Of a DNA stretch of 64,000 bases, positions 1 to 57,134 are shown in pieces. Made by a program: the position numbers and the translations under genes. This stretch comes from Caballeronia glathei (lineage in GTDB: Bacteria; Pseudomonadota; Gammaproteobacteria; Burkholderiales; Burkholderiaceae): NCBI RefSeq assembly GCF_000698595.1, contig NZ_JFHC01000006.1, forward strand, positions 62,001 to 126,000, given 5' to 3'. The stretch's first letter is position 1. Each line of letters starts with the position of its first letter. The notes beneath the pieces were generated by a model. It saw nothing but the letters and a program-made list of their open reading frames with translations. It did no database searches and had not been told where the DNA came from.

Positions 1-1
1 A

Positions 2-1102
2 TGCGCGGCGTCGGCATCGGCGGCGATGGCGATACGCCAGATCGTGCTGAACGCCGTCCCCGCCGTGCAGGCGATCCGCCTCGAACGCGAACTGCTCGGG
101 TCCGGCAACGGCCGCCCCGCGCAGACGTTGCGCACGGCGCGCAGGCCGGTCGTCGGCGACGTGCGGCTCGACGTGCGCGAGGGCGACGGGGGCCTCACGC
201 GCGACTGGGTGCGCTGGCAGTGCGTCGATGACCTGAGTGCGTCGGATCACGATGCGCGCGCATTCGTCCTCGACCGCCTCACCGGGACCGTGCGCTTCGG
301 CGACGGCCGGCACGGACGCATCCCGCCCGCGGGCGGCAACAACATTCGCATCAGCTACAGCGCGGGCGGCGGGGCGCGCGGCAACCGCCCGCCGCACGCG
401 ATCGCGCAGTTGCGCACGACGATTCCGTACGTCGAGTCGGTCACGAACTGCGATCCCGCAACGGGCGGCCAGGACACGGAGAGCGAGTTGTCGCTGCGGC
501 GCGCGGCGCTCGCGCGGCTCAGGCATCGCGACCGCGCCGTGTGCGCCGACGACTACGCCGATCTCGCGCTGCGCGCGTCGCCGGAGGTCATGCGCGCGAT
601 GTGCCGGGGCGGGCGCGATCTGTCGCGTGCGGATTCGCGTGCGCAGAGCGCGCGGGGCGCCGTGAGCGTGGTGATCGTGCCGGACGTCGCGGCAGCCGAG
701 CCGCAGCCGGCGCTTGCGCTTCTCGCGCGCGTGAAGACCTATCTGGAGGCGCGCGCTCCGGCGGGCGTCGAACTGATCCTGCTCGGGCCGGCGTATCTGC
801 GCGTCGCGGTCGATGCGGAACTGGCCGTGGCGCCGGATGCGTCGTCCGAGCGTGTGATCGCCGCGTGCGAGGCGCGCGTGAATGCGTTTCTGCATCCGCT
901 CACGGGCGGGGCGGGCGGGGATGGCTGGGCCTTCGGCAAGGAGCCGCACGCATCGGACCTGCTCGCCGCGCTGGATGAAATCGACGGCATCGACCACGTG
1001 CGCGCACTGCGGCTGCGTTTCGAGGCTGACGCGCGCGATCTGCGGCGCAGCGGCGATTTCCTCGTCAGCGCGGGCCGCCACACGATCCGGGCCAGCCGAT
1101 GA
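2..1102 (+). CDS. Baseplate J-like protein of a contractile injection system (5' partial)
   Basis: The frame is open from window base 2 with no in-frame stop, so the gene very probably starts upstream; the ATG at 26 looks internal. The visible ~366 residues contain the signature VRFGDGRHGRIPPAGGNN followed by a Gly-rich stretch ending in GNRPPHAI, which is typical of the 'putative baseplate assembly protein' family related to phage P2 gpJ and Afp/PVC baseplate wedges. Such proteins build the baseplate wedge of phage-tail-like injection machines. The stop overlaps the start of the next baseplate gene by 4 bases (ATGA), indicating tight translational coupling. The C-terminal half (residues 180-366) has the usual J-like beta-sandwich repeats (VSVVIVPD, then LRVAVDAELAV). 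Family assignment is firm; the exact Afp counterpart is not, because the N-terminus is missing. Confidence 0.8.
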   Translation, partial: CAASASAAMAIRQIVLNAVPAVQAIRLERELLGSGNGRPAQTLRTARRPVVGDVRLDVREGDGGLTRDWVRWQCVDDLSASDHDARAFVLDRLTGTVRFGDGRHGRIPPAGGNNIRISYSAGGGARGNRPPHAIAQLRTTIPYVESVTNCDPATGGQDTESELSLRRAALARLRHRDRAVCADDYADLALRASPEVMRAMCRGGRDLSRADSRAQSARGAVSVVIVPDVAAAEPQPALALLARVKTYLEARAPAGVELILLGPAYLRVAVDAELAVAPDASSERVIAACEARVNAFLHPLTGGAGGDGWAFGKEPHASDLLAALDEIDGIDHVRALRLRFEADARDLRRSGDFLVSAGRHTIRASR

Positions 1103-2226
1103 ACACGCCAGCCACCGCTCTCGGCCGCAACCCGGACGATCTCGACTTCGACGACCTCGTTCGGGAGGGCCTCGCGCTGCTGCCGGCGTACGCGCCCGAG
1201 TGGACGGACCACAATCCGTCGGACCCGGGCGTGACGCTCGTCGAGCTGCTCGCCTATTTCTCCGACATCCTGCTCTACCGCATCGGGCGCGTCACGCCCG
1301 CCGCAAAGCTGCAGTTCCTGCGGCTGCTCAAGGGTGAGCATGACTTCGACGGGCTCGCGAGCGATGCCGCGGGCAGAACCCGGGGCATCGTCGATCCGGC
1401 AGCGGAACTGAAGCGCGCGATCGACGAAACCGTCCGCGAACTGGCCCACATGGACTGCGCGGTGACGCCGCGCGACTTCGAGCGGCTTGCGCTCGACGTC
1501 GCGCAACGTGTATTGCGTGAGCGGCGCGTGCGGGTGCGGTGCATCGCGAATGCGGACCTGAGCGGCGGCCGGATGCGCACGGGCGCCGTGGACGCGCGCG
1601 GGCATGTGAGCGTCGTGATCGCGCCGCCCGCCGACGTGCCGCCGCACGAAGCGGCGAGACTGCGCGACGCGGTGCGCACGCACCTCTTGCCGCGCTGCCT
1701 GCTGACGACGCGCCTGCATGTGGTCGCGCCCGTCGAGCTGGTGGCGGGTATCGGCTTTCAGGTCGCACTGTGGCCGGGCGTGTCGATCGAGGCGGCGCTC
1801 GCGCAGATCGCCATCGCACTGCGCGAGCGTTTCGGCGCGGGCGGGGACGAAGGCGATGCGGATGGTGAAGCCCCGGCGTTCGGCGCGCCGCTTCATCTGT
1901 CCGAGATCGCCGCGGCGATCGACCGCGTGGCGGGCGTCGATTATGTCGAGAACGTGACCGTGTTCACGCTCGGCACCGAACTTGACGCACCCGATGCGAA
2001 TCTCGGCGTGCAGATCGGCGCGAGTTCGACGGTGGGCGTCGATACGCGCATCGGCGGCCAGGGCGGGCTCGGCGCGACGCGGCTGATACGCGACAGCGAG
2101 GGCACGCTCGCGTCGGTCGTGCTGCAGCCGTGGGAAGTGTTGCGCGTCGTGCTCGTGCCGGGGGGCGTCCACGCCATCGGCGGGGGCCGCGACGGAGAAC
2201 GCGAAGGAGGACGCGATCATGGCTGA
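1099..2226 (+). CDS. Second baseplate wedge protein (J-like), eCIS
   Basis: 375 residues. The N-terminus carries WTDHNPSDPGVTLVELLAY (about residues 35-53), a strongly conserved opening of eCIS baseplate J-like proteins. The middle and C-terminal parts repeat the J-like architecture of the upstream gene (TPRDFERLALDVAQRV, then VSVVIAPP, then a segment beginning IGFQVALWPGVS). It would form the second wedge component of the baseplate, in the cytoplasm during assembly. The ATG at 1099 overlaps the previous stop, and the end overlaps the next gene by 8 bases, so the genes are one operon. The separation into two J-like genes is the normal arrangement of Afp11/Afp12-type loci. Function is inferred from family and context. 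Confidence 0.78.
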   Translation: MNTPATALGRNPDDLDFDDLVREGLALLPAYAPEWTDHNPSDPGVTLVELLAYFSDILLYRIGRVTPAAKLQFLRLLKGEHDFDGLASDAAGRTRGIVDPAAELKRAIDETVRELAHMDCAVTPRDFERLALDVAQRVLRERRVRVRCIANADLSGGRMRTGAVDARGHVSVVIAPPADVPPHEAARLRDAVRTHLLPRCLLTTRLHVVAPVELVAGIGFQVALWPGVSIEAALAQIAIALRERFGAGGDEGDADGEAPAFGAPLHLSEIAAAIDRVAGVDYVENVTVFTLGTELDAPDANLGVQIGASSTVGVDTRIGGQGGLGATRLIRDSEGTLASVVLQPWEVLRVVLVPGGVHAIGGGRDGEREGGRDHG

Positions 2227-2944
2227 GCGCACCGGCCGCCTGATGGCGGCGCTCCCCGCGATCTACCGCGCAGCCGACGAGTCCGGCGAGCTGCGTGCGC
2301 TGCTCGGCGCATTCGAGGCGGTCCTGCTCGAAAGCGGCGACCCGTCGGCGCCCGCGATCGCCGAGCGCATCGACGCGATCCCCGGCCTCTTCGCGCCGCT
2401 CGGCGTGTCGACGTCCGCGCAGCTTGCGACGCAGGACGGCCCGTACCAGATCCAGCCGCACGCACGCGAGGGCGCGCCCGAGTGCTTTCTCGCCTGGCTC
2501 GCGCAGTGGGTGGCGTTCGGCCCGTACCGGCATTTTTCCGCGGCGAGGGTGAGGAAGATCATCGCCGGCATCGTGCCGCTCTATGGCAGGCGCGGCACGC
2601 GCCAGTATCTCGAAGCGCTGCTCGCCCTCTCTTTCGACGAGATCGGCACGCTCTCGATCGACGAGGCGCCGCTGCATGGCTTTCTGATCGGCCGAGCGCG
2701 GCTCGGAGAGGATTCCGTGCTCGCCGCCGACGAGCCGTTTCGCTTCAGGGTGGAAATCTTCATCCGCGAAGGCGCGCTGCCCGCGCACGATGAGGAGGCC
2801 GGGCAGCAGGGCGCGCACGACCCGTGGCAGGCACTCGAAGCGCGCGTGCGCGCCATCGTCGATTTCGCGAGGCCGGCGCACACCGAGTACGAGTTGGTGT
2901 TACGAAGAGGCACAGCAAATGCAGAAGAGACAGCTCATCAATAA
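2219..2944 (+). CDS. Phage tail protein I-like (baseplate periphery), eCIS
   Basis: 241 residues. The motif LPAIYR near the N-terminus, the region LLESGDPSAPAIAERIDAIP (residues ~39-58), the LAWLAQWVA segment and then IIAGIVPLYGRRGTRQYLEA are the typical order of the 'phage tail protein' family found in contractile injection systems, which resembles P2 gpI. It is expected to join the baseplate wedges to peripheral fibres. AAGGAGG-like purines lie just ahead of the ATG at 2219 (inside the upstream gene). It overlaps the preceding gene by 8 bases and the following gene by 26 bases. No signal peptide or membrane segment is seen, as expected for a cytoplasmic structural protein. Confidence 0.75.
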   Translation: MAERTGRLMAALPAIYRAADESGELRALLGAFEAVLLESGDPSAPAIAERIDAIPGLFAPLGVSTSAQLATQDGPYQIQPHAREGAPECFLAWLAQWVAFGPYRHFSAARVRKIIAGIVPLYGRRGTRQYLEALLALSFDEIGTLSIDEAPLHGFLIGRARLGEDSVLAADEPFRFRVEIFIREGALPAHDEEAGQQGAHDPWQALEARVRAIVDFARPAHTEYELVLRRGTANAEETAHQ

Positions 2945-3929
2945 AAAGCCTGCGTACTATCGCGGCCAGTTGCTGCTGGAGGACGACTTCATCGCGGAGC
3001 AGCGCTATCACGCGAACGCGCGCTATCGTCACTCGCTCAACCTGCACGGCTGGGGCATCGTGCGCGGTCTCGAAGTGCGGCACGCGGGCGCGAACGAGGT
3101 GGTCGTGAGCCCGGGGTTCGCGATCGACGGCCGTGGCCACGAGATCGACCTGCAACGCGAGGAGAAGCTCGATCTGTCCTCGAATGCGGCCAATGCGGTG
3201 CTGGTCGTGAGTCTCGTCTACGACGAAGAGGACACGCCCGCCGGCGGCGACGACGAGCGGCGCACGCGCAAGTGCTACGCGGTGCTCTCGGCGGCGGTGG
3301 GCGCAGCCGAGGCAGCCGTGATCCTCGCGACCGTCGAGCTCGACGACAAGAGCCAGGTCACGCCAGAGCGCATCACGACCGCCAACCGCCGGTATCTCAA
3401 GACGCTCCTCACGCCGGGGTGCGTGAGCGCGAAGGCGCTCGACGACCATCTGCGCACCGGCTGGCTCAGAATGCCGTTTCGCCCGACGCCGATCCCGGCC
3501 GACAAGGAGGAGGCCCCGCCGGCATTTCGCGTCGGGCCGACGGAGGCGCGCTCGCATCGCGAGATCGACCGGCAGCCCAACACGAAGGGCGCGGCCGGCA
3601 CGATGGCGATCTCGCTTGCGCCGAGCGTGACACGGGTATTGCGCCTGCGCGTCGCGGGCGAGCAGAACGAGGCGCAGATGACGGTCGAACTCTTCATCGG
3701 CGGATGGGACGCGCAAAAGAGCAAGCACATCGCGCGCAGCGTGCTGAAGGAGGAAGTGAAGGGCGGTCCCTACGACAGGACATGGGACATCGCAGGCGGC
3801 GACATTCATCTGGAAACCTCGACGCTCTCCATCGAAATCCGCTGCAGCGGCTACACGCGCGTGTCGCTCGTTGCGGTCGAGGTGAGCTGCGATCCGGCGC
3901 TCCTGCAGGTGGCGTCCGTCATCGGCTGA
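2919..3929 (+). CDS. eCIS-associated structural protein of unknown role
   Basis: The frame is open from 2790 but the start at 2919 is preferred: AAGAGG lies 9 bases upstream and the protein then begins MQKRQLINKKPAYYRGQLLL. That gives 336 residues. The N-terminal pattern (YYRGQLLLEDDFIAEQRYH, then LHGWGIVRGLEV, then VVSPGFAIDGRGHEI) recurs in proteins encoded inside eCIS and tail-like loci, usually next to the baseplate genes. The C-terminal ~130 residues (from about TMAISLAPSVTRVLRLRV) look like a beta-sandwich, possibly carbohydrate- or surface-binding. A wedge-associated or fibre-like role is plausible but I cannot name it. It lies between the tail-I-like gene and the ATPase, 10 bases before the latter. 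Confidence 0.65.
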   Translation: MQKRQLINKKPAYYRGQLLLEDDFIAEQRYHANARYRHSLNLHGWGIVRGLEVRHAGANEVVVSPGFAIDGRGHEIDLQREEKLDLSSNAANAVLVVSLVYDEEDTPAGGDDERRTRKCYAVLSAAVGAAEAAVILATVELDDKSQVTPERITTANRRYLKTLLTPGCVSAKALDDHLRTGWLRMPFRPTPIPADKEEAPPAFRVGPTEARSHREIDRQPNTKGAAGTMAISLAPSVTRVLRLRVAGEQNEAQMTVELFIGGWDAQKSKHIARSVLKEEVKGGPYDRTWDIAGGDIHLETSTLSIEIRCSGYTRVSLVAVEVSCDPALLQVASVIG

Positions 3930-3939
3930 GGAGCATGCG

Positions 3940-6117
3940 ATGCACGCGTTTGCCCATTCGCTCGAACACCTGCTCGCGGAGCTGGAGCGCGTCGACCTGC
4001 TGATCCGCGCGCACGTCGCGGCGTTTCGCGCGGCCCAGACCGAAGACGAGCAGTTTCGCGGCCTCTATGTGTCCGAGCAGCAGGTCGACGCGCTGCTCGC
4101 CGCGCCGCTCGGCATGCCCGCATGGCTCGCTGACGACGCGCCGCGCCGCGACCGGCTCGAGGCGCATGCGTCGCTCGCGCAACGCACGGCGGCCCGCAAG
4201 CGGCTCGCTCTCGATGCGGGCATCGACCTGCGGCTCGAACGGCTGGCGCGGCTTTTCGCGCTGAGTGAACTGGATGTCGGCATTCTGCTCGTGTGCCTCG
4301 CGGTGGAACTCGATACGCGCTATGAAAAGCTCTATGCGTACCTGCAGGACGATGTGACGAAGACGCGCCCCAGCATCGATCTCGTGCTTTCGCTGCTCGA
4401 GCCGGACCCGCTGAAGCGCTTTGACGTGCGCGAGCGGTTCGCCGCCGATGCGCCGCTGCGCTCGGCGCGCCTCATCGAAGTCTTCGACGATCCCGCGCGT
4501 CCTTCGCCGCCGTTCATCGGCAAGGTGGCCAGGGCGGACGAGCGCATCGTGTCGTTTCTGCTCGGCTCCGACCGGCCCGACGCGCGGATCGCGCGCTGCG
4601 TGCAGATCTCGCGGGATGCGCAGAGCCTCGACACCCTGGTGCTCGACGACGACACGAGGCGGGGCCTGCAAGGCATCGCCCGCGCCGCCGCCGATGGGCC
4701 GCGCATGGTCGTGCATCTGCAGGGGCCACCCGGTGCGGGCAAGCGCAGCATCGCGCGGGCGGTGTGCCACGAGCGCGGGCTGCCGCTTCTCGTCGCCGAT
4801 CTCGAACGGCTGCACGCGGATGCGGACGGCAGCCTCGTGGCGCCACTCGATCTGATCGCGCGCGAGGCGCGGCTCGCGAACGCGGCGCTCTACTGGAACG
4901 GCTTCGACACGCTTCTCGCCGCGGAGCGGCGCAGCGCGCTCGAGGCGTGCCTGCGCGTCGCCGGGTCAGCGCCGCATCCGAGCTTTCTCGCGGGCGAAAC
5001 GCCGTGGCTGCCTGGCAGCGCACTAAGGGGCGCGCGCTACGTGAGCGTGACGGTGTCGCGGCCCGCGGTGCCGCAGCGCATCCGCTTGTGGCACCTGGTA
5101 GCGGAGATTCATCGCGTCGCCACCCCGGCGCTCGATCTGACCGGCATCGCGACCAAGTTCAAATTCACGCCCGGCCAGATCGAAGCCTCGATGCGCACGG
5201 CGGCGAGCCTCGCGAGCTGGCGCGATCCGCAGAACGCGCGTGTGAGCTCGCAGGATCTCTACGATGCATGCCGCCTCAATTCGAACCGCACGCTCGCGAC
5301 GCTCGCGCACAAGATCACGCCGCGCTTCGACTGGCACGACATCGTGCTGCCCGCGGACCGTGTCGCCCAGCTGCGCGAGATCTGCAATCACATCAAGTAC
5401 CGCAACCAGGTCTTCAACGACTGGGGCTTCGATCGCAAGCTCGCGTCGAGCAAGGGGCTCACGTTCCTGTTCGCCGGACCGTCGGGCACCGGCAAGACGA
5501 TGGCCGCGGGCATCATCGCGGCGGAGCTTGGGCTCGACCTCTACAAGATCGACCTGTCGCTCGTGATCAGCAAGTTCATCGGCGAGACGGAGAAGAACCT
5601 CGCGCACATCTTCGACGAAGCCGAGACCGCGAACGCCATTCTCTTCTTCGACGAAGCCGATTCGCTCTTTGGCAAGCGCAGCGAGGTGAAGGACTCGCAC
5701 GACCGCTATGCGAACATCGAAGTCGGCTATCTGCTTCAGCGCATCGAGGAATACGAGGGCATCGCGATACTGGCGACGAACTTTCGCCGGAACATGGACG
5801 ACGCGTTCGTGCGGCGCCTGCAGTTCACCGTGGACTTTCCGCTGCCCACCGAAGGCGACCGGCATCGCATGTGGCTCTCGATCCTGCCCGAGCACACGCC
5901 GCGCGACCCCGCGCTCGATCTCGCGCTGATGGCGCGGCGCTACAACCTCACGGGCGGCAACATCCGCAACGTGGCGCTTGCCGCCGCGTTTCTCGCCGCC
6001 GATGACGGCGACATGATCCGCATGACGCATCTCATCGCGGCGACGCAGCGGGAGTATCAGAAGATGGGCAAGCTCGTCGGCGACGGCGAGTTCAGGCACG
6101 CGCCGCCGCCGTCATGA
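3940..6117 (+). CDS. AAA+ ATPase of contractile injection system (Afp15-like)
   Basis: 725 residues with an alpha-helical N-terminal region (1-240) and two AAA-type parts. The C-terminal AAA domain is intact: Walker A GPSGTGKT at residues 513-520, Walker B ILFFDEAD ending near residue 574, and a sensor-1-like ATNF followed by an arginine-rich VRRLQFTVDFP. The first nucleotide-binding site is GPPGAGKR at 262-269, where Arg replaces the usual Ser/Thr, and no clear Walker B follows, so it may be inactive. Afp15-type ATPases are conserved in extracellular contractile injection systems, where they are thought to act in assembly or cargo loading. The gene is the last of the operon on this strand and is convergent with the GH19 gene 23 bases away. 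Confidence 0.82.
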   Translation: MHAFAHSLEHLLAELERVDLLIRAHVAAFRAAQTEDEQFRGLYVSEQQVDALLAAPLGMPAWLADDAPRRDRLEAHASLAQRTAARKRLALDAGIDLRLERLARLFALSELDVGILLVCLAVELDTRYEKLYAYLQDDVTKTRPSIDLVLSLLEPDPLKRFDVRERFAADAPLRSARLIEVFDDPARPSPPFIGKVARADERIVSFLLGSDRPDARIARCVQISRDAQSLDTLVLDDDTRRGLQGIARAAADGPRMVVHLQGPPGAGKRSIARAVCHERGLPLLVADLERLHADADGSLVAPLDLIAREARLANAALYWNGFDTLLAAERRSALEACLRVAGSAPHPSFLAGETPWLPGSALRGARYVSVTVSRPAVPQRIRLWHLVAEIHRVATPALDLTGIATKFKFTPGQIEASMRTAASLASWRDPQNARVSSQDLYDACRLNSNRTLATLAHKITPRFDWHDIVLPADRVAQLREICNHIKYRNQVFNDWGFDRKLASSKGLTFLFAGPSGTGKTMAAGIIAAELGLDLYKIDLSLVISKFIGETEKNLAHIFDEAETANAILFFDEADSLFGKRSEVKDSHDRYANIEVGYLLQRIEEYEGIAILATNFRRNMDDAFVRRLQFTVDFPLPTEGDRHRMWLSILPEHTPRDPALDLALMARRYNLTGGNIRNVALAAAFLAADDGDMIRMTHLIAATQREYQKMGKLVGDGEFRHAPPPS

Positions 6118-6140
6118 ACATCGCCGTTGCGGCCCGTCCG

Positions 6141-6812
6141 CTACACGACGGCGCTGCCGTCGGAAGACTGCACGCCGAGCGCGTTGCTCGCAAGCTCGAA
6201 GGCGCTGTTGCGCCCTTGCTCGCCTTCGTGCGCGGGGTTGATCCTGCCCGTGATCGCGCGGAAGTCGCCTTCGTCCGCGAGTTCGTTGCAGCCGCGCGAT
6301 TGCCAGTACCAGGCGGCGACGAGCGCGGCGGTGTCGGCGTCGTTGCGCACGAGCTCCGGGTTCGCGACGAGATCGACGCCGATGGCCTCTCCGGCACTCG
6401 CGAAGTTCGCCTTGAAGGTGAGCTGGATCAGACCGGAGCCGCGATAGGTCCAGCCGTCACCGCTCGCGGCCGGACCGTTGCCGTGCCGGTTCTGATAGAC
6501 GATATTGGCCAGTTGCTGCTGGCGTGCGGGCGGCACGCAGGTCTCGCCGGGCTGCCGTCCGAGCGCGCTGCATTGGGCCGGCGTCAGCACGGAGAACACC
6601 GCATCGAGACGGTCGGCCGAATAGTTGAATCGCTCCGCGATCGGCGGCAGCGGGAACGTGCCGCTCTCATAGGCGAGTTGCGCGAGAAACGCGGCCTGCC
6701 GCGCGGGGGTGTTGATCTGAAACCGCTCCATTGCACTCATGACTGGCGCGAGCCAGAAATCGGCGCTCGCCTGCGAGGCGCCTGTCGCCGCCATGAACGT
6801 TGCCTGGTCCAT
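6141..6812 (-). CDS. GH19 chitinase-like endolysin
   Basis: 223 residues from the ATG at 6812, which has GGAGA 6 bases upstream; a GTG four codons earlier (6824) is the alternative. Glycoside hydrolase family 19 is recognised from FLAQLAYESGTFP, where the Glu is the likely general acid, followed by IAERFNYSADRL with the second acidic residue, and then GWTYRGSGLIQLT, a hallmark of GH19 lysins. Lysins of this type cut the peptidoglycan sugar backbone. There is no signal peptide, so it would need a holin, another export route, or packing into the injection particle. It faces the eCIS ATPase tail-to-tail. A role in particle release is possible; a stray phage lysin is the alternative. Confidence 0.85.
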   Translation of the reverse strand: MDQATFMAATGASQASADFWLAPVMSAMERFQINTPARQAAFLAQLAYESGTFPLPPIAERFNYSADRLDAVFSVLTPAQCSALGRQPGETCVPPARQQQLANIVYQNRHGNGPAASGDGWTYRGSGLIQLTFKANFASAGEAIGVDLVANPELVRNDADTAALVAAWYWQSRGCNELADEGDFRAITGRINPAHEGEQGRNSAFELASNALGVQSSDGSAVV

Positions 6813-7243
6813 GCTGTTCTCCACATCAGAAAGCCATCCGGCACACCGTCACCGCGCATCGGGCAAGGTGTGAATCAGCGAAGTGCCGCAAGGCCAGTGT
6901 TGGAGTGGACCGCTTTTTTGGGGTGGTTTGCGACGGGCCACGTGCGCGATCCGGGGGAAGGTATCGGACGACGGCCTGATTATCGTTTTAGCACGTAACG
7001 TACGGTGCGGCATCGACTGGATGAGCGCATATGAGGCATTCATCACACTGCGGAAGTTCTACAATGAAAGTCGAAGCACTGGTGTCGTTCGTTACCCGAA
7101 ATGACGCGTGCGCGAATGATGACGCAATCATGCGTGCCGCGAGGCGCAAGGGCAGTTAAGCGGATGTTCAATAGCCGGTCAGGCCGTGCTCATCGTGGGC
7201 GCGGCCGCCACGCTCTCGTGCGATCCGCAAGGAGTCTTCGATC
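6813..7243. other. 431-base intergenic stretch, no convincing gene
   Basis: Between the GH19 start and the DUF4157 gene. Base composition drops visibly around 6960-7130 (runs such as tgattatcgttttagcac), unlike the neighbouring genes. A 73-codon frame on the plus strand (6883-7104) lacks a ribosome-binding site and family resemblance and is not called. The region probably holds the divergent promoters of the two genes. Confidence 0.5.
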
Positions 7244-7930
7244 ATGGACGATCGTGAATCATGGGTGAGGGTGCGCGCCGGGCAGCCGTCGATGGCACGC
7301 AGCGCGACGCAGGCGAAGCGCGCCGGCGAGGGCGACTCCATCGCGCAACACGCGCCCGCACCCGCGCGTGCGGGCGATGCCCGCCAGCGTTCCCTGCTGA
7401 CCCTGCAGATGCAATACGGCAACCAGTACGTCGCGCGCATGCTGAGCCGTTCCGCGAGCGAGGGTTCGATGGACGATGTCGAACGCTCCATCGATTCGGC
7501 GCGAGGAGGCGGACAGGCGCTCGATCATTCCGTTCGCAGCCGCATGGAGCCCGCGTTCGGCGCGGACTTCAGCGGCGTGCGGGTGCATACCGACGCGCGC
7601 GCCGACGAACTGAACCAGACCCTGAGCGCGCGTGCGTTCGCAACCGGGCAGGACATCTTCTTCCGGCAGGGGCAGTACGACCCCGGTTCGTCGAACGGGC
7701 GCGAACTGCTTGCGCACGAACTCACGCACGTGGTCCAGCAGAACGGCCCGGGCGTGCAGCGCAAGATGACGGTGAGCGAGCCCGACGATCCGCATGAAGC
7801 CGAAGCCGACGCGATGGCGCGCGCGGTGATGCGCGACGAACACGAGCCGGGGGTGAACCGCGAGATGGCGCTCGACCGTCAGCCCGAAGCGCCGGCCGGG
7901 GACGAGGACAAGAAGGAGGAGACGCTTTAG
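7244..7930 (+). CDS. DUF4157 protein with HExxH motif (eCIS-associated)
   Basis: 228 residues; AAGGAG lies 9 bases before the ATG. A variable N-terminal ~70 residues is followed by the DUF4157 core: LDHSVRSRMEPAFGADFSGV, VRVHTDARADELNQ, LSARAFATGQDIFF and then the putative metallopeptidase helix HELTHVVQQ (His158, Glu159, His162). A downstream DDPHEAEADAMA supplies a possible third zinc ligand. DUF4157 domains are common in and next to eCIS loci, where they occur alone or at the N-terminus of toxins. Here no toxin domain follows; the tail is a short acidic, Lys/Glu-rich end. It stands alone after the eCIS genes and is a candidate cargo, cargo-processing factor or adaptor. The domain call is firm, the role inferred. 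Confidence 0.85.
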   Translation: MDDRESWVRVRAGQPSMARSATQAKRAGEGDSIAQHAPAPARAGDARQRSLLTLQMQYGNQYVARMLSRSASEGSMDDVERSIDSARGGGQALDHSVRSRMEPAFGADFSGVRVHTDARADELNQTLSARAFATGQDIFFRQGQYDPGSSNGRELLAHELTHVVQQNGPGVQRKMTVSEPDDPHEAEADAMARAVMRDEHEPGVNREMALDRQPEAPAGDEDKKEETL

Positions 7931-7947
7931 CACGCACGCTGCGTGCG

Positions 7948-9189
7948 CTAGAACCTCGACGGACGATAGGGCGAGGGATCGGTGAACGGCGTTTCGCCGC
8001 TCATCATCTCGGCGAGCAGACGCCCCGTGACCGGCCCGAGCGTCAGGCCGTGATGCGCATGGCCGAACGCGAACCATAATCCCGCATGGCGTCCTGCCGG
8101 GCCGATCACGGGCCGCATGTCCGGCGTGCACGGGCGCAGGCCGAGCCACGGCTTGTCGTCGAGACGCTGCCCGAGTCCGAAGACGGGCCGCGCCGCGCGC
8201 TCGGCGAGATCCAGCTGTACCGGGTTCGCCGGACGCTCGCGCGAGGCAAGTTCCACCCCCGTCGTGAGGCGCAGGCCGCGCTTCATCGGCGCGACGACGT
8301 AGCCCGCTTCGATATCGACGACCGGACGCAAGAGCGGCGCGTCCGCTTCGCTTGCATAGTGCATGTGATAGCCGCGCTTCGCCATCAGCGGCATGCGGTA
8401 GCCGAGCGGGCGCAGCACGGCATCGGACCACACGCCGAGGGCGACGACCGCCTCCTGCGCCTCGACTACGCCGTCCGCGGTGCGCACGCGCCAGCCGCGG
8501 CCGGTCGCCTCCAGCGTGAGCGCATCGCCTCGCAGGATCGTGCCGCCCTCGCGTTCGAAAAGGCCCGCATAGCCCTTAGTCAGCGCGCCGGGATCGGACA
8601 CGCTCTTCGGATCGGCCCAGTGGATCGCCCCCGCATAGCCCGGCGCGAGCGATGCCTCGGCGCTGCGCAGCGCCGAGGCATCGAGGATCGAGACGTGCAG
8701 GCCGTGCGCCGCCGCGATGCGTTCGGCATCGGGCGCTTCCTTCTCGAACGACGCGCGCGAGCGATAGGCTTCGAGCCAGCCTGTCGGCCGCACGAGTTCG
8801 CGCAGGCCCGCGCGGTCGATGAAGGCGTCGTGCTCGGCCACGCACCGCGCGACGAGCGGCAGCATGTCGCGTGCGGCCGCCTGCAGGCGGTTTGGCGCCG
8901 ATTCCCACCAGAAGCGTGCGAGCCACGTTGCGTACGAGGGCAGCGAGCGCAGGTCGTAGCGCAGCGCGGTCGAATCGTTGCGCGCAAAGCGCAGCACTGT
9001 GCGCCAGTCGCGCGGAAACGCATACGGCACCACCGACGACGCCTCGATCAGCCCCGCATTGCCGAAGCTCGTTTCCTCGCCCGGCGCGCGCCGGTCGACG
9101 AGCACCACATGCCGCCCGCGCTGCTGCAGATGCAGCGCCACGCTGACACCCACGATGCCCGCACCGAGCACGATGACGTCCTGAGCCAT
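7948..9189 (-). CDS. FAD-dependent D-amino-acid dehydrogenase (DadA-like)
   Basis: 413 residues. It starts MAQDVIVLGAGIVGVSVALH, a Rossmann FAD-binding GxGxxG, and ends with PWLGLRPCTPDMRPVIGPA and FGHAHHGLTLGP, the C-terminal FAD-contact motifs of the DadA/glycine-oxidase family. Such enzymes oxidise D-amino acids to 2-oxo acids and ammonia, passing electrons to the respiratory chain at the inner face of the membrane. It lies 34 bases downstream of an amino-acid binding-protein gene on the same strand, and opposite an arginine-dehydrogenase-like gene and a DauR-like regulator, so the substrate is probably a basic D-amino acid such as D-arginine or D-lysine. The sequence resembles DadA rather than Pseudomonas DauA. 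Confidence 0.82.
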   Translation of the reverse strand: MAQDVIVLGAGIVGVSVALHLQQRGRHVVLVDRRAPGEETSFGNAGLIEASSVVPYAFPRDWRTVLRFARNDSTALRYDLRSLPSYATWLARFWWESAPNRLQAAARDMLPLVARCVAEHDAFIDRAGLRELVRPTGWLEAYRSRASFEKEAPDAERIAAAHGLHVSILDASALRSAEASLAPGYAGAIHWADPKSVSDPGALTKGYAGLFEREGGTILRGDALTLEATGRGWRVRTADGVVEAQEAVVALGVWSDAVLRPLGYRMPLMAKRGYHMHYASEADAPLLRPVVDIEAGYVVAPMKRGLRLTTGVELASRERPANPVQLDLAERAARPVFGLGQRLDDKPWLGLRPCTPDMRPVIGPAGRHAGLWFAFGHAHHGLTLGPVTGRLLAEMMSGETPFTDPSPYRPSRF

Positions 9190-9223
9190 AGGTTCCTTGT
9201 CGGGGTCCGTGAAGGGGCGCCCC

Positions 9224-10015
9224 TTACTTCGCGATGATGTCGCGCTTGAAATACTTCTGCGAGAGCTGACTCAGCGTGCCGTCCTTCTTGAGCCCGTCGA
9301 GCGCCGCGACGATCTTCGCCTTGAGCGCCGTGTCGCCCTTGCGCAGGCCGAAGCCGGTGCCTTCGCCGAGCGTCGCCGGATCCGAGACGGCCGGCCCGGC
9401 GAAATCGAAGTCCTTGCCTTCGGGCTTCGCGAGAAAGCCGTCGATCGCAGTCTGCACTTCCTGCACCGCGCCGTCGAGCCGGCCGGCCGCGAGGTCCGCG
9501 AAAATCTGGTCCTGGTTCTGGTAGGTGACGACCTGCACGCCTTCCTTCGCCCAGTGCTTGCGCACGAAGTCCTCCTGCGTCGAGCCCTGCAGCACGCCGA
9601 CCGACTTGCCTTTGAGGCTCGCGGGAGTCGGCTGCAGTCCCGAGCCGCGCTTCGCGATCATCTGGATCGGCATGATGTAGATGGGCGGCGTGAAGTCGAT
9701 GGCCTGGCGGCGCTTGGCCGTGATGTTCATCGCGGAGTTGATGACGTCGAACTTGCGCGCCTGCAGCGCTGCAATGAGCCCGTCGAAACTGTTCTCGACC
9801 CACACGCACTTCATCTGGAGGCGCTGGCACACCGCGTTGCCGATGTCGATATCGAAGCCCTCCAGCTGACCCGACGCTGTCTTGCTCTCGAACGGCGGGT
9901 AGGACGCCTCGACGCCGAATCTGAGCGTCTGTGACGCGGGCTGCGCCTGCGCGGTGCCGCCGATCGTGAAGGCGAGACTCGCTGCGAGCGCGAGGCAAAA
10001 CAATTTCCGGTTCAT
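9224..10015 (-). CDS. Polar amino-acid ABC transporter, periplasmic binding protein
   Basis: 263 residues from the ATG at 10015. The frame is open further upstream, but that part overlaps the divergent gene and has no signal peptide. From 10015 there is a clear Sec signal (MNRKLFCLALAASLAFTIGG, cut after AQA). The SBP_bac_3 fold is evident from LRFGVEASYPPFES, LEGFDIDIGNAVCQRL and FDVINSAMNITAKRRQAIDF. This family binds lysine, arginine, ornithine or other polar amino acids. No cognate permease or ATPase is in the window, so it must use components encoded elsewhere. It is followed by the D-amino-acid dehydrogenase gene, in the same probable operon. Confidence 0.85.
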   Translation of the reverse strand: MNRKLFCLALAASLAFTIGGTAQAQPASQTLRFGVEASYPPFESKTASGQLEGFDIDIGNAVCQRLQMKCVWVENSFDGLIAALQARKFDVINSAMNITAKRRQAIDFTPPIYIMPIQMIAKRGSGLQPTPASLKGKSVGVLQGSTQEDFVRKHWAKEGVQVVTYQNQDQIFADLAAGRLDGAVQEVQTAIDGFLAKPEGKDFDFAGPAVSDPATLGEGTGFGLRKGDTALKAKIVAALDGLKKDGTLSQLSQKYFKRDIIAK

Positions 10016-10080
10016 CGTGGTCACCGTGTCGTGTGTTGGAAGACAACGCGCGGCGAATGCCGCAGGCGTGACATGAAATA

Positions 10081-10125
10081 TAGACCATAAATAAAATAAA
10101 AGTCTAGAATGGACAAAAATGTCTA
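10081..10125. promoter_or_regulatory. AT-rich divergent control region with TAGAC/GTCTA half-sites
   Basis: Between the divergent binding-protein (start 10015) and dauB-like (start 10149) genes. A markedly AT-rich island contains TAGAC at 10081-10085, GTCTA at 10102-10106 and GTCTA at 10121-10125. TAGAC and the first GTCTA form an inverted pair around an A/T-only core. This is a reasonable operator for the DauR-like regulator encoded at 11138-11830. No experimentally known site was matched. Confidence 0.4.
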
Positions 10126-10148
10126 CACCGAATCGAGGAGTTCCGGAC

Positions 10149-11141
10149 ATGAACGATTTACTTAATTCCGCTGAATCCGCGCCGCTCGTCGCCGATGAAG
10201 CGCAGGTGCGCGCGGCCTTGCCCGCGCTCGACGTGCGCGGTGCGCTCGCGCGCATGTTCGGCGCGCTCGGGCGCAGCGCCGCCGTGCAGCCGCCGCAGAC
10301 GCTCACGCTGTTCCCGCAGCAGGCGGGCGACTTCATCACGTATCTCGGCGTGCTTGCAGAAGAAGAGGTGTTCGGCGCGAAGCTCTCGCCGTACATCGCG
10401 ACGGCCGGTGCGCCGGTGATCACGGCCTGGACGGCGCTGATGTCGATGCGCACCGGCAAGCCGCTGATGTGGTGCGATGCCGGGCTCCTCACGACAGAGC
10501 GCACGGCCGGCACGACCGCGCTCGCCATCGGATATCTGGCGGCGAGCACGAGCACGCGGCTCGCCGTGATCGGTTCCGGCGCGCTCGCGCTCGCCCATGT
10601 GCGGCACGCCGCGCCGCTGCGCGCGTGGGAGAGCATTCGCGTTCATTCGCCTGCGCTTTGCGGCAGCGCGGCGCGCGAGGCCGATGTTCTCGCGGCCGAT
10701 CCGCGCGTCACGATCGCGCAGTCGGTGGCCGACTGCGTGCGCGATGCCGATGTCGTGATGCTCTGCACGTCGTCGGGCACGCCTGTCCTCTCGCTCGACG
10801 ATCTCACCAGGCCCGCGCTCGTCACTTCGATCAGCACGAACGTCGCGCGGGCTCACGAAGTCGATCCGGCGGCGCTGCCCCGGCTCGACGTCTATTGCGA
10901 CTATCGGCGCACCACGCCGGGCAGCGCGGGCGAGATGCTGATCGCGGCGGAGCAGCACGACTGGTCGCCCGAGGCGATTCGCGGCGACCTGGCCGAACTC
11001 GCGAACGGTGCGTGCCCGATGCCCTCGTACGATCGTCACGTGCTGTTCCGCTCGATCGGACTCGGGCTCGAGGACATCGCCGTCGCGCATGCGCTCTACG
11101 CGCATCTGCATGCGCTTGCGCGCGGCCCGCGCGCTGTATGA
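10149..11141 (+). CDS. dauB: Ornithine cyclodeaminase/mu-crystallin family dehydrogenase (DauB-like)
   Basis: 330 residues from the ATG at 10149, which has GAGGAG 8 bases upstream; an in-frame ATG at 10119 lacks a site. Rossmann NAD(P)-binding motif AVIGSGALALAHVRHA around residue 140, and the family motifs GAPVITAWTALMSMRTGKPL and ADVVMLCTSSGTPVLS are present. Members include ornithine cyclodeaminase, ketimine reductases and the NAD(P)-dependent L-arginine dehydrogenase DauB of Pseudomonas aeruginosa. With a D-amino-acid dehydrogenase, a basic-amino-acid binding protein and a DauR-like regulator next door, the DauB role (amination of 2-ketoarginine to L-arginine, read catabolically or anabolically) is most likely. 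The stop overlaps the regulator start. Confidence 0.7.
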   Translation: MNDLLNSAESAPLVADEAQVRAALPALDVRGALARMFGALGRSAAVQPPQTLTLFPQQAGDFITYLGVLAEEEVFGAKLSPYIATAGAPVITAWTALMSMRTGKPLMWCDAGLLTTERTAGTTALAIGYLAASTSTRLAVIGSGALALAHVRHAAPLRAWESIRVHSPALCGSAAREADVLAADPRVTIAQSVADCVRDADVVMLCTSSGTPVLSLDDLTRPALVTSISTNVARAHEVDPAALPRLDVYCDYRRTTPGSAGEMLIAAEQHDWSPEAIRGDLAELANGACPMPSYDRHVLFRSIGLGLEDIAVAHALYAHLHALARGPRAV

Positions 11142-11830
11142 TCGACCACCGCTTACCGCCTCTCATGTCCACTGCGATGCGAAAACGCAAGTCCCCGGCC
11201 AAGAACCCGCCCGCGCGCGCCGCGCTCCTCGAGCGCTACGCGCATATCGCCGACAGCATCACCAGGCTGTTTTTCCCCTATGCGGAAGTGGTGATCCACG
11301 ACCTGACCGATCAGACCGTCGCGTACCTGTCGAACAATCTGTCGAAGCGCGAGGTAGGCGACGAATCGGCGCTGGAGGATGTCGAGGAAACGACCCGCGA
11401 CAAGCTGCTCGGTCCCTACGAGAAAGTGAACTGGGACGGCCGCCGGATGCGCTGCGTAAGCACGGCGCTTTTCGACGATGCGGGACAGGCCGCGGGCGTG
11501 ATGTGCATCAACTTCAACATCGCGGCGTTCGAGGAGATACGCTCGACGCTCGATCTGTTCCTGCGTGGCTCGGGTGTCGTCGCGCAGCCGGTCGAGCTCT
11601 TCAAGGACGACTGGCAGGAGCGCATCAACACGTTCCTCCACGGCTGGCTGCGGGAGCGGCAGATCGCGCTCAACTCGCTCACGCGCGAGCACCGGCGCGA
11701 ACTGGTCGAAGCCCTGCACGCCGAGGGCGCGTTCAAGGGCAAGAGTTCGGCGAATTACGTCGCGAAGGTGCTCGGCATGGGGCGCGCGACGGTGTACAAG
11801 CATCTGCGGGAGATGAAGCAGGGAATGTAA
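11138..11830 (+). CDS. dauR: PAS/helix-turn-helix transcriptional regulator (YheO/DauR-like)
   Basis: 230 residues from an ATG that overlaps the upstream stop (ATGA). ATGs at 11165 and 11177 are alternatives and homologue lengths would fit 11165 as well; none has a good ribosome-binding site. An N-terminal PAS_6-type sensor (YAHIADSITRLFFPYAEVVI, then LSTAL-like FDDAGQAAGVMCINFNI) is followed by a C-terminal HTH_22-type DNA-binding domain (GAFKGKSSANYVAKVLGMGR, then ATVYKHLREMK). DauR in Pseudomonas represses the D-arginine operon; this protein has the same two-domain plan and sits in the same gene context. It probably controls both directions from the AT-rich region at 10081-10125. Confidence 0.72.
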   Translation: MIDHRLPPLMSTAMRKRKSPAKNPPARAALLERYAHIADSITRLFFPYAEVVIHDLTDQTVAYLSNNLSKREVGDESALEDVEETTRDKLLGPYEKVNWDGRRMRCVSTALFDDAGQAAGVMCINFNIAAFEEIRSTLDLFLRGSGVVAQPVELFKDDWQERINTFLHGWLRERQIALNSLTREHRRELVEALHAEGAFKGKSSANYVAKVLGMGRATVYKHLREMKQGM

Positions 11831-11852
11831 GGCACGGTGCCCGGCGGCGCCA

Positions 11853-11875
11853 GGCGCCAATGCGGCGCCAATTTT
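11853..11875 (+). terminator. Possible weak intrinsic terminator after regulator gene
   Basis: GGCGCC (11853-11858) pairs with GGCGCC (11864-11869) around the loop AATGC, followed by AATTTT. The stem is short (6 base pairs) and the T-run is poor, so this is only a candidate. Confidence 0.35.
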
Positions 11876-11955
11876 GAAATCTGGTTGACCATCCGCGTGG
11901 CCGGTTTATCCTTGCGTGTGCGCGAGAGACGCATTCACACATAAAAGGAGGCGCC

Positions 11956-12897
11956 GTGTACGTCAACCACGAGGTTTTCAACGACGCGGACCGGCACGCC
12001 GCGGCGCTTCGCGGCTGGGAGCAGCGCTACGACCAGATCGGCGCGGGCGTGTTCCAGAGCGCGGTCAAGCAGGTTGCCGTGGAAGGCGTGCAGGTGTTCC
12101 AGGAGGCGGCGAACGTGCGCGTGGTCCAGCGCGGCGCGCTGCCTGCCGGCTACACCACGTTCGGGCTCGCGCTGGGCGGCAGCGCGCCGTTTTCGTTTCG
12201 CGGCGCGAGACTCGACCAGGACGCGATGGTCATCACCGCGGGCGCGAAGGAGTTCATGCTGCATTCGCCGGCGGACATGTCGCTCGTGGGCGTCGCGATC
12301 GACCCGGGCGTGCTGCGGATGGTCGCGGATGCGGCGGGCATCGACGTCGAGGACGATCTCTTTTACCGCGACGTCATCGACATTCCGCGCGCAGCCGGCA
12401 TGCGCGTGGGCCGGCGCCTCGTCGAGACGATGGAGCGCGTGCTCGCGCAACCGGCGCTGCTCGGGAACGCGCAGGCCGAGCGCCGCTTCGCGCACGACGT
12501 CGCGGAGGGCATCCTCGATCTCATCACCTACCACGTTCCCGGCCAGTCGAACCGCCTCACGCACGCCTGCCAGAGCGAGATCGTGCGGCGCAGCCACGAG
12601 CTCGTGCTCGCGAGCCCGGAAGAGCCGGTGTCGATATTCGATCTGTGTTCCGCACTGCGCGTAAGCCGCCGCACTATTCAAAACAGCTTTCAATCCATTG
12701 CTCAGACGAATCCCGCGAACTACCTGCGTTCGGTGCGTCTCGCGCAGGTAAGGCGCCTTCTGCTCGCGTCGCGACAGAGCGACGTGCCCGTGAGCGAAGC
12801 CGCGGCCTGCTGGGGTTTTACGCATCTCGGCCATTTCGCGCGCGATTACAAGGCTCAGTTCGGCGAGCTGCCGTCGCAAACGGCGCGGCGTCTCTAG
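11956..12897 (+). CDS. AraC-family transcriptional regulator of the amine dehydrogenase operon
   Basis: 313 residues from a GTG at 11956 with AAAGGAGG ending 4 bases upstream. The C-terminal ~110 residues form an AraC HTH_18 domain: SIFDLCSALRVSRRTIQNSF is the first recognition region and FTHLGHFARDYKAQFGELPS is the usual second. The N-terminal part resembles the ligand-sensing region of EutR/FeaR-like regulators (QVFQEAANVRVVQRGALPAG). It is oriented with, and lies 142 bases before, the aromatic amine dehydrogenase heavy-chain gene, so induction of that operon by its amine or aldehyde is the natural inference. No operator repeats could be assigned with confidence in 12898-13027. Confidence 0.82.
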   Translation: MYVNHEVFNDADRHAAALRGWEQRYDQIGAGVFQSAVKQVAVEGVQVFQEAANVRVVQRGALPAGYTTFGLALGGSAPFSFRGARLDQDAMVITAGAKEFMLHSPADMSLVGVAIDPGVLRMVADAAGIDVEDDLFYRDVIDIPRAAGMRVGRRLVETMERVLAQPALLGNAQAERRFAHDVAEGILDLITYHVPGQSNRLTHACQSEIVRRSHELVLASPEEPVSIFDLCSALRVSRRTIQNSFQSIAQTNPANYLRSVRLAQVRRLLLASRQSDVPVSEAAACWGFTHLGHFARDYKAQFGELPSQTARRL

Positions 12898-54628: not shown

Positions 54629-55402
54629 TCAGGCCTCGGAGCGGGTGGGGTGCGTCGGGAGCGTCGATTGTGCCGGTTGTGACGGTTGCGTCGCCTGGGG
54701 AGCGTGAAAGGGTGCGAGGCCCTCGGCCGTGAGCAGCAGGATGCGGTCGGCGGTGGCGGCCGCGAGCGCCGAATGCGTCACGATCAGGCCCGCGGTGCCC
54801 GCGGCGGCGCCCGCCTTGACCCGCTCGCGCAGGAGGCGCAGCACTTGCTGCGCCGTGTCCGGATCGAGATTGCCGGTGGGCTCGTCGGCGAGTATCAGGC
54901 GCGGCGCGTGCACGAGCGCGCGGGCGATCGCCACGCGCTGGGTCTCGCCGCCCGAAAGCTCGCGCGGCAGGCTGTCGTGACGCGTTTCCATGCCAAGCTC
55001 GGCGAGCATCGCCACCGCGCGCGAATGCGCGTCGCGCCGGCTCGCGCCGTTCAGAAGGAGCGGCAGCGCGACGTTCTGCGCGACCGTCAGATACGGCAGC
55101 ACGTGAAACGCCTGGAATACGAAGCCCATCGAGCGGCGCCGCAGCAGGGTGGCCGCTTCGTCGTCGAGCGTGCACATATCCTCGCCCGCGACCACGACGC
55201 GGCCGCTGTCGGGCTTGTCGAGGCCCGCGATCAGGTTGAGCAGCGTCGACTTGCCGACCCCCGATTCGCCCATCACGGCGACGTATTCGCCGGCGCGCAC
55301 CGTGAGACTGACCGAGCGCAGCACGGTGCGGCCGTGCGTGCCGCCGTGGGCCTTCGTGATCGACTCGACTGCCAGCACGTTCGTTCCGTCCGGTGGTTGC
55401 AT
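54629..55402 (-). CDS. ABC transporter ATP-binding protein (LolD/MacB type)
   Basis: 257 residues from the ATG at 55402; no good ribosome-binding site is visible, but longer frames make no sense. Walker A GESGVGKS in AVMGESGVGKSTLLNLIAGL, Q-loop GFVFQAFHVLPYLTVAQNV, signature ELSGGETQRVAIARAL (LSGGE) and Walker B LILADEPTGNLD are all intact. The tail of about 25 residues is Pro/Thr/Ser-rich. It drives the FtsX-type permease encoded next. With the lipocalin-like gene it forms an att-like transporter. Confidence 0.88.
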   Translation of the reverse strand: MQPPDGTNVLAVESITKAHGGTHGRTVLRSVSLTVRAGEYVAVMGESGVGKSTLLNLIAGLDKPDSGRVVVAGEDMCTLDDEAATLLRRRSMGFVFQAFHVLPYLTVAQNVALPLLLNGASRRDAHSRAVAMLAELGMETRHDSLPRELSGGETQRVAIARALVHAPRLILADEPTGNLDPDTAQQVLRLLRERVKAGAAAGTAGLIVTHSALAAATADRILLLTAEGLAPFHAPQATQPSQPAQSTLPTHPTRSEA

Positions 55403-55631
55403 ATGGGGAGCACGGTCGCGAGGAGGAGAGGGCGATGTCCATTCTAGTCGCGGTTGCGGCGCCGCGCCCGAGGTCTTCCGAACGGAACGCGACTGTGCCG
55501 TGCCATTTTCGACCCCACGCAGGTCTCGCCACTGCTCGAACGGACAAAACGACGCAGCCGCTTCACAATAGGTGTTCAACTCAGGGTCATCCACCCCGGG
55601 TATTCAACCCAGCCGAGCGCACACCGCCGCC

Positions 55632-56276: not shown

Positions 56277-56311
56277 TTGCTTCAGCCGGAATACGTGGGC
56301 AGCCTCCGGCA

Positions 56312-57052: not shown

Positions 57053-57134
57053 TTGCACGGTGATCCGCACGATCATTCGGGCCGCGCACGCGTACAATCA
57101 AGCATCGTCTGCATCGCTTCGACAGACTTCCCCC

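Follow-up and report, generated by a model that had tools for sequence, protein, structure and literature searches.

Where and when contractile machines other than the type VI secretion system (T6SS) fire is an open question, to which the membrane protein CisA of Streptomyces is one answer. The question arises again for the contractile injection system (CIS) at the left edge of the stretch analyzed here (the window), 64,000 nucleotides of the Caballeronia glathei genome (8.64 Mb, designated G000), corresponding to positions 62001-126000 of contig C6 (178,976 bases). The window starts with the baseplate, ATPase and effector end, i.e., the 3′ half, of a complete CIS of the extracellular CIS (eCIS) lineage. 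Beyond the other end of this CIS, on the strand opposite to its cap gene, lies a cassette of Ser/Thr kinase, PP2C phosphatase and FHA-domain genes. The cassette is conserved, and it is inherited together with the CIS and the C-terminal domain (C-domain) of a Cis13-like protein that occupies the fibre position (window 3411-3929). We lean towards a CIS that a phosphorylation switch licenses for deployment at the envelope of its producer, the C-domain being the contact of the particle. Coordinates of all features are collected in Table 1.

Association of the cassette with one clade of CIS

Fifteen CIS proteins of this locus were found again, in identical order, in 10 further loci (nine genomes and one plasmid), which excludes chance. 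The resulting 11 loci, here called the clade, come from two families of one order. In the first family the carriers beyond G000 are C. humi (G013), C. calidae (G004), G105 (which we take to be Trinickia violacea) and a 2.56 Mb replicon of Paraburkholderia caribensis MBA4. Those in the second family are G1053, G1068, G1107, G1092, G1097 and G1099, and the hosts there presumably include Nitrosovibrio tenuis, Nitrosospira sp. Is2 and Nitrosospira sp. NpAV. The hosts of the machine thus include soil Burkholderiaceae and, putatively, Nitrosospira and Nitrosovibrio, which are ammonia oxidisers. Judged by the Cis13-like protein, the closest named relatives are C. humi (76% identity) and C. calidae (74%), both of the window's genus, followed by G105 (65%); the earlier note, which had spoken of Burkholderia-like bacteria, was correct at the family level. 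Because close copies occur in just 3 of 58 genomes of the genus (G000 included; any match, 5 of 58), the locus is patchily distributed within it.

The cassette flanks all 11 clade loci examined, with gene order and divergent strand identical in each. A further copy stands beside a different CIS in the second-family genome G1113, giving 12 cassette loci. Seven cassette families are present in all 12, whereas kinase 1 and the DUF4280 protein were each seen in eight, within the stretches fetched.

Several of the cassette loci had been located via CIS genes, and three tests were hence run from both sides. When 399 genomes of the order were searched with the VWA-FHA protein (the best three or fewer candidates per genome being scored), strong full-length matches were found only in G000 and G1053, the other 14 of 16 being short or weak; in G1053 a CIS is present with the cassette beside it, lacking DUF4280. 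In G1053's family, of which 100 genomes were searched, seven hold VWA-FHA and the same seven the Cis13-like protein (threshold 1e-20 for each), always on the same contig, divergent and 17 to 32 kb apart; six of these carry a full-length Cis13-like protein and G1113 its C-domain alone (residues 165-324). Among 72,556 plasmid records, a sheath was detected at 1e-40 in 59, VWA-FHA (1e-20) in one and the C-domain (1e-3) in one, and the last two are the identical record.

The cassette is not a general feature of CIS, and that possibility was rejected. It was absent from all 19 other Pvc16_N loci in a 398-genome sample of the phylum (flanks of up to 20 kb per side, short in G428, G447 and G525) and from the upstream side of all 38 other sheath stretches of the order, eight of which offer less than 8 kb there (G825, G895, G1003, G725, G829, G1052, G893 and G970). 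The whole-genome VWA-FHA search of the order gave no strong match in those other CIS genomes among the best three or fewer candidates of each. Even the near relative G866, with similar chaperone, DUF6760 and ATPase genes, has no VWA-FHA, no C-domain and no cassette in its stretch.

Signalling genes of other kinds do occur near CIS. On a plasmid of Deinococcus sp. AJ005 (9280-10696), annotated PP2C and VWA genes lie about 7 kb from a CIS sheath, amid AAA and recombinase genes. On plasmid pn3 of Nostoc sp. UHCC 0926 (6373-12354), a 5.98 kb 'AAA family ATPase' gene with a Ser/Thr kinase domain (profile match) lies about 4 kb upstream of the CIS, beside a response regulator. Signalling genes near CIS are therefore not unique to the clade, but their make-up differs from that of the cassette.

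The C-domain and the CIS of G1113

Profiles built separately for the two halves of the Cis13-like protein behave differently. The N-terminal GQLLL domain is common to the fibre-position proteins of G484, G567, G442, G339 and G334, with weaker matches in G417b and G536, whereas among the stretches compared the C-domain has matches in the 12 cassette loci alone. A search of 58 whole genomes detected it in 3/3 cassette genomes and convincingly in 0/55 others that have a CIS sheath or cap match; among phage records it had no match. Its predicted fold is CBM-like and also matches phage receptor-binding and tail proteins (VIA-align), which points to a shared fold and says nothing of function. The whole-model top matches of the Cis13-like protein in Foldseek (TM around 0.2) were not used.

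In G1113 the cassette resembles that of the clade (Kin2, the second kinase, is 80% identical to that of G1053), while the CIS beside it is another one, with a different gene order, five DUF4157 genes and a sheath about 30% identical to those of the clade. In the sheath tree it falls among cassette-free loci, next to G928b (98/90), and the tree therefore requires two changes of cassette label. Despite this change of machine, the part of the Cis13-like protein from residue 166 to 323 is retained in G1113, at 53% identity over 165 positions, as the C-terminus of a 662-residue DUF6519 protein.

Relationship of the CIS to known systems

Seven proteins (sheath 1, tube 1, LysM, the baseplate J proteins J1 and J2, cap and Cis13-like) were compared with solved chains; sheath 2, tube 2, hub, spike, gp25 and the ATPase were left out. 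Six had a match, and for five of them (sheath, J1, J2, LysM and cap) the best was the CIS of Streptomyces coelicolor (CISSc; 9GTP/9GTS). The margin was large for J1 (165 bits to 9gtp; 42, 40 and 23 for the next three) and J2 (62 vs 22), with 75 vs 58 for the cap and a small difference for LysM (76 vs 66). Sheath 1 scored 274 bits against 8bky/9gtp, 248 against 9ezm, 164 against Anabaena, 151 against AlgoCIS and 146 against Afp3. Tube 1 ranked the Anabaena thylakoid CIS (7B5H) first, and the Cis13-like protein matched no solved chain by sequence.

The earlier note had called the locus Afp/PVC-type. This stands as far as the eCIS lineage and the core set (tubes, sheaths, cap, LysM, hub/spike, gp25, J protein and AAA ATPase) are concerned. 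It does not stand for the closest relatives, as the six matched proteins divide into five for CISSc and one for Anabaena, with similarity to Afp/PVC below that to CISSc for those five. Nor is there a recognisable Afp14 tape measure, an 842-residue low-complexity protein standing at that place. An Afp13-like long fibre was not recognised at its usual place: the baseplate genes are followed by the 336-residue Cis13-like protein with its CBM-like C-domain, and in the 11 clade loci the frames between tail-I and ATPase overlap or lie within about 120 bases, leaving no room for a fibre gene there, although one may lie elsewhere.

With CISSc the machine further shares a DUF4255 cap and the lack of a conventional fibre gene at the usual place. 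It is set apart by its Gram-negative host, the presence of two sheath genes, a hub gene distinct from the spike gene and the divergent kinase-phosphatase cassette; the annotated relative in S. clavuligerus has no such cassette within its stretch. In passages of the paper on the S. coelicolor CIS (9GTP; PMC12237407), that system is described as cytoplasmic, fibreless and requiring the membrane protein CisA.

A tree of 71 C-terminal sheath parts (of 74 loci, G866 with its short frame, G428 and G635 were left out, as was a duplicate G567 copy) places the 11 clade loci in one group with support of 100/100. Its sister group consists of plasmid CIS of Nostoc and Rhodococcus; those of Paracoccus/Deinococcus branch off next and that of S. 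clavuligerus last, with 85/84 at this outermost fork. The best explanation of these sequence comparisons is that the machine belongs to a branch which also holds Streptomyces and some cyanobacterial CIS. The Nostoc plasmid locus shares the order chaperone-DUF6760-tube-long protein-LysM, but its J proteins are longer, the fibre place is taken by different proteins, and the kinase-bearing ATPase gene stands in place of the cassette.

Composition of the cassette and its likeness to the T6SS phosphorylation pathway

The cassette comprises, in order, genes for VWA-FHA, PP2C, FHA, a Ser/Thr kinase (kinase 1), two small proteins, a PDZ/S41 protease, a second Ser/Thr kinase (Kin2) and a DUF4280 PAAR-like protein. 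Copies from five genomes were checked for motifs and hydropathy. The kinases carry HRD and DFG in 10/10 cases, and all PP2C patterns were found in 4/5 copies and the S41 SAAE motif in 5/5; the VAIK pattern was found in 4/10 kinase copies, with YAVK at that place in Kin2. Membrane spans were predicted in the middle of VWA-FHA (5/5), in PP2C (5/5) and in Kin2 (4/5), and kinase 1 has a C-terminal span in G000, the one copy that could be judged, the others consisting of the matched part alone. The two small proteins, with hydrophobic stretches in 5/5 and 4/5 copies, look like coiled-coil envelope proteins. A second, partial relative of VWA-FHA was noticed in G1068 (C12:160384-161280), about 38 kb from the first.

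A membrane kinase (its spans predicted by hydropathy only), a PP2C phosphatase and an FHA protein are thus encoded together in one cassette. In T6SS, as described in passages of PMC10482370 and PMC12607579, the membrane kinase PpkA phosphorylates Fha and the PP2C phosphatase PppA reverses this. The likeness to this threonine phosphorylation pathway (PpkA-PppA-Fha, TagQRST) lies in a Kin2 with predicted span and C-terminal tail, a PP2C, an FHA protein and envelope-type accessory proteins beside a contractile machine. The cassette differs in that it does not stand beside TssJLM, its VWA is fused to FHA, two kinases are present in 8 of 12 loci, and an S41 protease and a DUF4280 protein accompany them. 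As it is not linked to a T6SS, we describe it as working like the T6SS pathway and not as a member of it. Among the matches listed from open-licence literature, no title or abstract names such a cassette; it is the cassette and the paired fibre-position domain that set the locus apart, the CIS itself being of known type.

Proposed working and alternative explanations

For this machine we infer a topology, a phosphorylation control, a docking contact, a place of firing and a cargo, as follows. An envelope signal would be read by the predicted periplasmic parts (the VWA domain and the Kin2 tail), activating the kinases. Contacts between phosphothreonine and FHA domains would then recruit or license the particle at the membrane, and PP2C would reset the phosphorylation state. 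The particle, assembled within the producer, would be recognised through the CBM-like C-domain at the fibre position. Upon firing, the tube would deliver cargo, for which the GH19 hydrolase is a candidate, with the stand-alone DUF4157 protein as its possible adaptor.

Such a machine could also have been an ordinary extracellular CIS, assembled in the cytoplasm, released by lysis with the help of GH19/GH24 enzymes and injecting a target bound by the C-domain, the cassette regulating production or release only. We consider this rather unlikely, though far from negligible. It agrees with the complete eCIS core plus DUF4157, with a CBM-like fold that phage receptor-binding and tail proteins match too, with the sharing of the N-terminal domain by long fibre-position proteins, and with the lysozyme-type gene beside the ATPase (GH19 in G000, C. 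humi, C. calidae and P. caribensis; GH24 in G105). It fits less well with the missing room for a fibre gene, which may however lie elsewhere, or with a cytoplasmic CIS as the closest solved relative of five proteins. The G105 lysozyme, paired with an LprI-family inhibitor, looks more like toxin and immunity than release, and no GH19 was seen in the stretches of the second family. Particle release alone gives no reason for the C-domain to stay with the cassette when the CIS changes. For that tracking there is another account, in which a new CIS recombined into the middle of an old locus in G1113 and the edges were left as scars. Recombination of this kind would leave the cassette at the left edge and the C-domain at the right, as seen; yet the domain is whole and in frame at the end of the DUF6519 protein, which at the identity given above suggests retention for use, and we regard the scar as unlikely.

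That the cassette is part of a T6SS or of general signalling, and a neighbour of the CIS by accident, is very improbable. Its kinase, PP2C and FHA proteins do resemble the T6SS pathway, and G000 has IcmF genes on contigs C21 and C86. IcmF (PF06761) is however absent from C6, and on C21 a separate kinase, with 39% identity to Kin2, lies 2 kb from IcmF. In the second family, no IcmF/TssM match was found in six of the seven cassette genomes, including a single-contig one, so that the cassette is unlikely to serve a T6SS there; moreover, cassette and CIS occur in the same 7 of 100 genomes. The CIS itself was likewise rejected as a T6SS, IcmF lying off C6; the ATPase of the locus is of AAA+ and winged-helix type. 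Hardly credible is a tailocin or prophage remnant, despite tail-like CIS genes and a GH19 protein that matches phage endolysins: features of a CIS are seen in the DUF4255 protein, the AAA+ ATPase with winged-helix domain, DUF4157 and the pairs of sheaths and tubes, and the scanned proteins of the locus and its neighbours (C6:1-40000 lies outside the scan) include neither head proteins (capsid, portal, terminase) nor an integrase, on which ground this origin was rejected. Of the two findings that the earlier note had named as fatal to its reading, neither the T6SS (sought through IcmF as the TssJLM member) nor the capsid, portal and integrase genes of a prophage appeared at the locus in these searches.

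Several observations count against the licensed, envelope-held CIS that we favour. Phosphorylation and docking are proposals drawn from gene association. The order-wide test has one independent positive, G1053, with the best three or fewer candidates per genome scored; the seven co-occurrence genomes all belong to one genus (23 genomes listed), so that descent explains part of the pattern, and the clade members, from two families, share descent as well. The distance matrices of cassette and CIS match, yet vertical inheritance would give the same, and the Mantel-type test, confounded by host descent, is no proof. In the protein database, at least 211 relatives of the Cis13-like protein at 1e-10 compare with at least 13 of VWA-FHA at 1e-20, in searches of different sensitivity; the gap is likely due to low sensitivity for the second family's VWA-FHA copies, which are 31-36% identical, but cassette-free relatives of the Cis13-like protein are possible. 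Within the cassette, kinase 1 is missing from 4 of 12 loci, and the Kin2 span escaped hydropathy in one of five copies. The C-domain has a marginal match in G726 (7.7e-5 over 71 residues, with internal stops), which was counted as no match; its CBM-like fold suits receptor binding on a foreign cell equally well, and the graft in G1113 is a single case, which recombination may have left as a scar. As for the sheath, its affinity to CISSc is unspecific: the distant G1113 sheath also ranks 8bky/CISSc first (258 bits), which makes the sheath rank weak evidence. Finally, a phage-type release enzyme beside the ATPase, which GH19/GH24 could be, would favour lysis and an extracellular particle.

Going beyond licensing at the envelope, we tentatively suggest that this may be an eCIS-lineage machine with a membrane phosphorylation gate in its own producer, evolved independently of T6SS, in which the CBM-like end of Cis13 would be the plug that fits the envelope cassette, and cassette and plug would form a portable control unit, movable to another CIS as in G1113. 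If so, the released eCIS and the T6SS would be joined by a third kind of contractile machine, cell-held and kinase-triggered. A cassette bound to one CIS clade, together with a fibre-position domain that travels with it, connects an envelope signal to a CIS in a concrete way that can be tested. In passages of Geller et al. (2021; PMC8213781), VWA is listed among the eCIS-near domains that seem to target eukaryotes; the cassette may explain some of the VWA proteins near eCIS as signalling parts.

Gene content of the locus and candidate cargo

The earlier note had placed a particle locus directly upstream of the window, and this expectation was borne out: the sheath, tube and LysM genes, together with those for hub, spike, gp25 and cap, were located within C6:49425-60202 of the same contig. 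The genes it had named inside the window (two J-like proteins, a tail-I-like protein, the GQLLLEDDFIAEQ / LHGWGIVRGLEV protein, an AAA+ ATPase and a DUF4157 protein) are all present in the order stated, while the GH19 gene on the minus strand between ATPase and DUF4157 was missing from its list. Pfam matches above cut-off for the gp19 tube, sheath, hub/spike, gp25, Baseplate_J, DUF4255 cap and AAA ATPase fall in this single locus.

Table 1. Features of the CIS locus and the adjacent cassette (positions prefixed C6 refer to the contig, all others to the window)
Feature	Position	Strand	Evidence or remark
Divergent cassette, VWA-FHA to DUF4280	C6:48914 down to 39807	opposite to cap gene	
DUF4255/Pvc16_N cap	C6:49425-50039		Pfam
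Sheath 1	C6:50081-52024		Pfam
Sheath 2	C6:52056-53363		Pfam
Tube 1 (gp19)	C6:53378-53824		Pfam
Tail-assembly-chaperone-like gene	C6:53821-54189		PHROG 508, 1.6e-6
DUF6760	C6:~54180-54359		
Tube 2 (gp19)	C6:54367-54804		Pfam
842-residue low-complexity protein	C6:~54804-57332, start uncertain		between tube 2 and LysM
LysM/CIS_tube	C6:57323-58030		Pfam
GPD hub	C6:58027-59097		Pfam
base_V spike	C6:59094-59741		Pfam
gp25	C6:59792-60202		Pfam
Baseplate J protein 1 (J1, Afp11-like), 3′ part	1..1102	+	Pfam Baseplate_J 2.6e-17; CISSc 9gtp_1K 2e-47, the best solved match
Baseplate J-like protein 2 (J2)	1099..2226	+	NCBIfam TIGR02243 1.4e-35, below cut-off; 9gtp_1K 3.9e-16; no Pfam match
Tail-I-like baseplate protein	2219..2944	+	TIGR02242 2e-11 and CIS12_fam 5.4e-7, both below cut-off; no Pfam match
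Cis13-like protein, GQLLLEDDFIAEQ / LHGWGIVRGLEV pattern, 336 residues	2919..3929	+	NCBIfam CIS13_fam 3.8e-12, below cut-off; no Pfam match
Cis13-like N-terminal GQLLL domain	2919..3410	+	CIS13_fam over residues 10-106; N-domain HMM (hidden Markov model) matches in other CIS loci
Cis13-like C-terminal CBM-like beta-sandwich domain	3411..3929	+	convincing only in kinase-cassette loci; proposed docking/receptor-binding domain
AAA+ ATPase (Afp15/Pvc15-like by position), N-terminal winged-helix domain (WHD)	3940..6117	+	AAA 6.6e-30, WHD 8.7e-56
GH19 family hydrolase, candidate cargo or release enzyme	6141..6824	-	Glyco_hydro_19 7e-13; PHROG endolysin 7.9e-65
Stand-alone eCIS_core (DUF4157) protein, HELTH motif, candidate effector adaptor	7244..7930	+	eCIS_core 1.8e-34

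The whole J1 gene occupies C6:60199-63102, its start lying 1801 bases ahead of the window, and between adjacent genes from J1 to the ATPase there is either an overlap of 4 to 26 bases or a gap of 10. The 842-residue protein has no match in Pfam, PHROG or NCBIfam and is conserved among relatives at both ends only; by position it may be a tape measure or lumen protein. As a PAAR-like tip, a DUF4280 match (5.8e-32; PAAR_motif itself 0.043) lies at C6:39807-40196, the end of the cassette, and no further tip gene was seen in the CIS operon.

The domain of the DUF4157 protein is the only DUF4157 match in G000, in a protein of 228 residues with no further Pfam domain. It resembles the DUF4157 effectors and adaptors described in parts of PMC8213781 and PMC11297309 in its HExxH eCIS_core domain at the 3′ end of a locus, but differs in standing alone, with no recognised cargo domain. 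In the second family, DUF4157 frames are 427-1640 residues long (five belong to the other CIS of G1113). The slot beside the ATPase, which holds a phage-type lysozyme in G105 where the other four first-family loci have GH19, points to a cargo that cuts peptidoglycan and is paired with immunity, or to a release enzyme. In G105 (8986-9962 of its stretch) the lysozyme gene (PF00959, GH24) is overlapped by a gene of the LprI family (lysozyme inhibitor), a possible effector and immunity pair.

PADLOC reported IetA and TRIP13 matches for the ATPase, which we read as generic AAA+ similarity. Near the 5′ end of its gene, the alignment of the C. calidae ATPase is broken into two pieces, residues 1-54 and from 77 on, which a frame change or sequencing error may explain. 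Sheath 1 appears, by eye, to carry a long charged insertion in its first half, and its relatives differ in length. Further sheath-like matches in G000 lie at C31:44244-44741 and C70:9085-9333, the latter below the Pfam cut-off.

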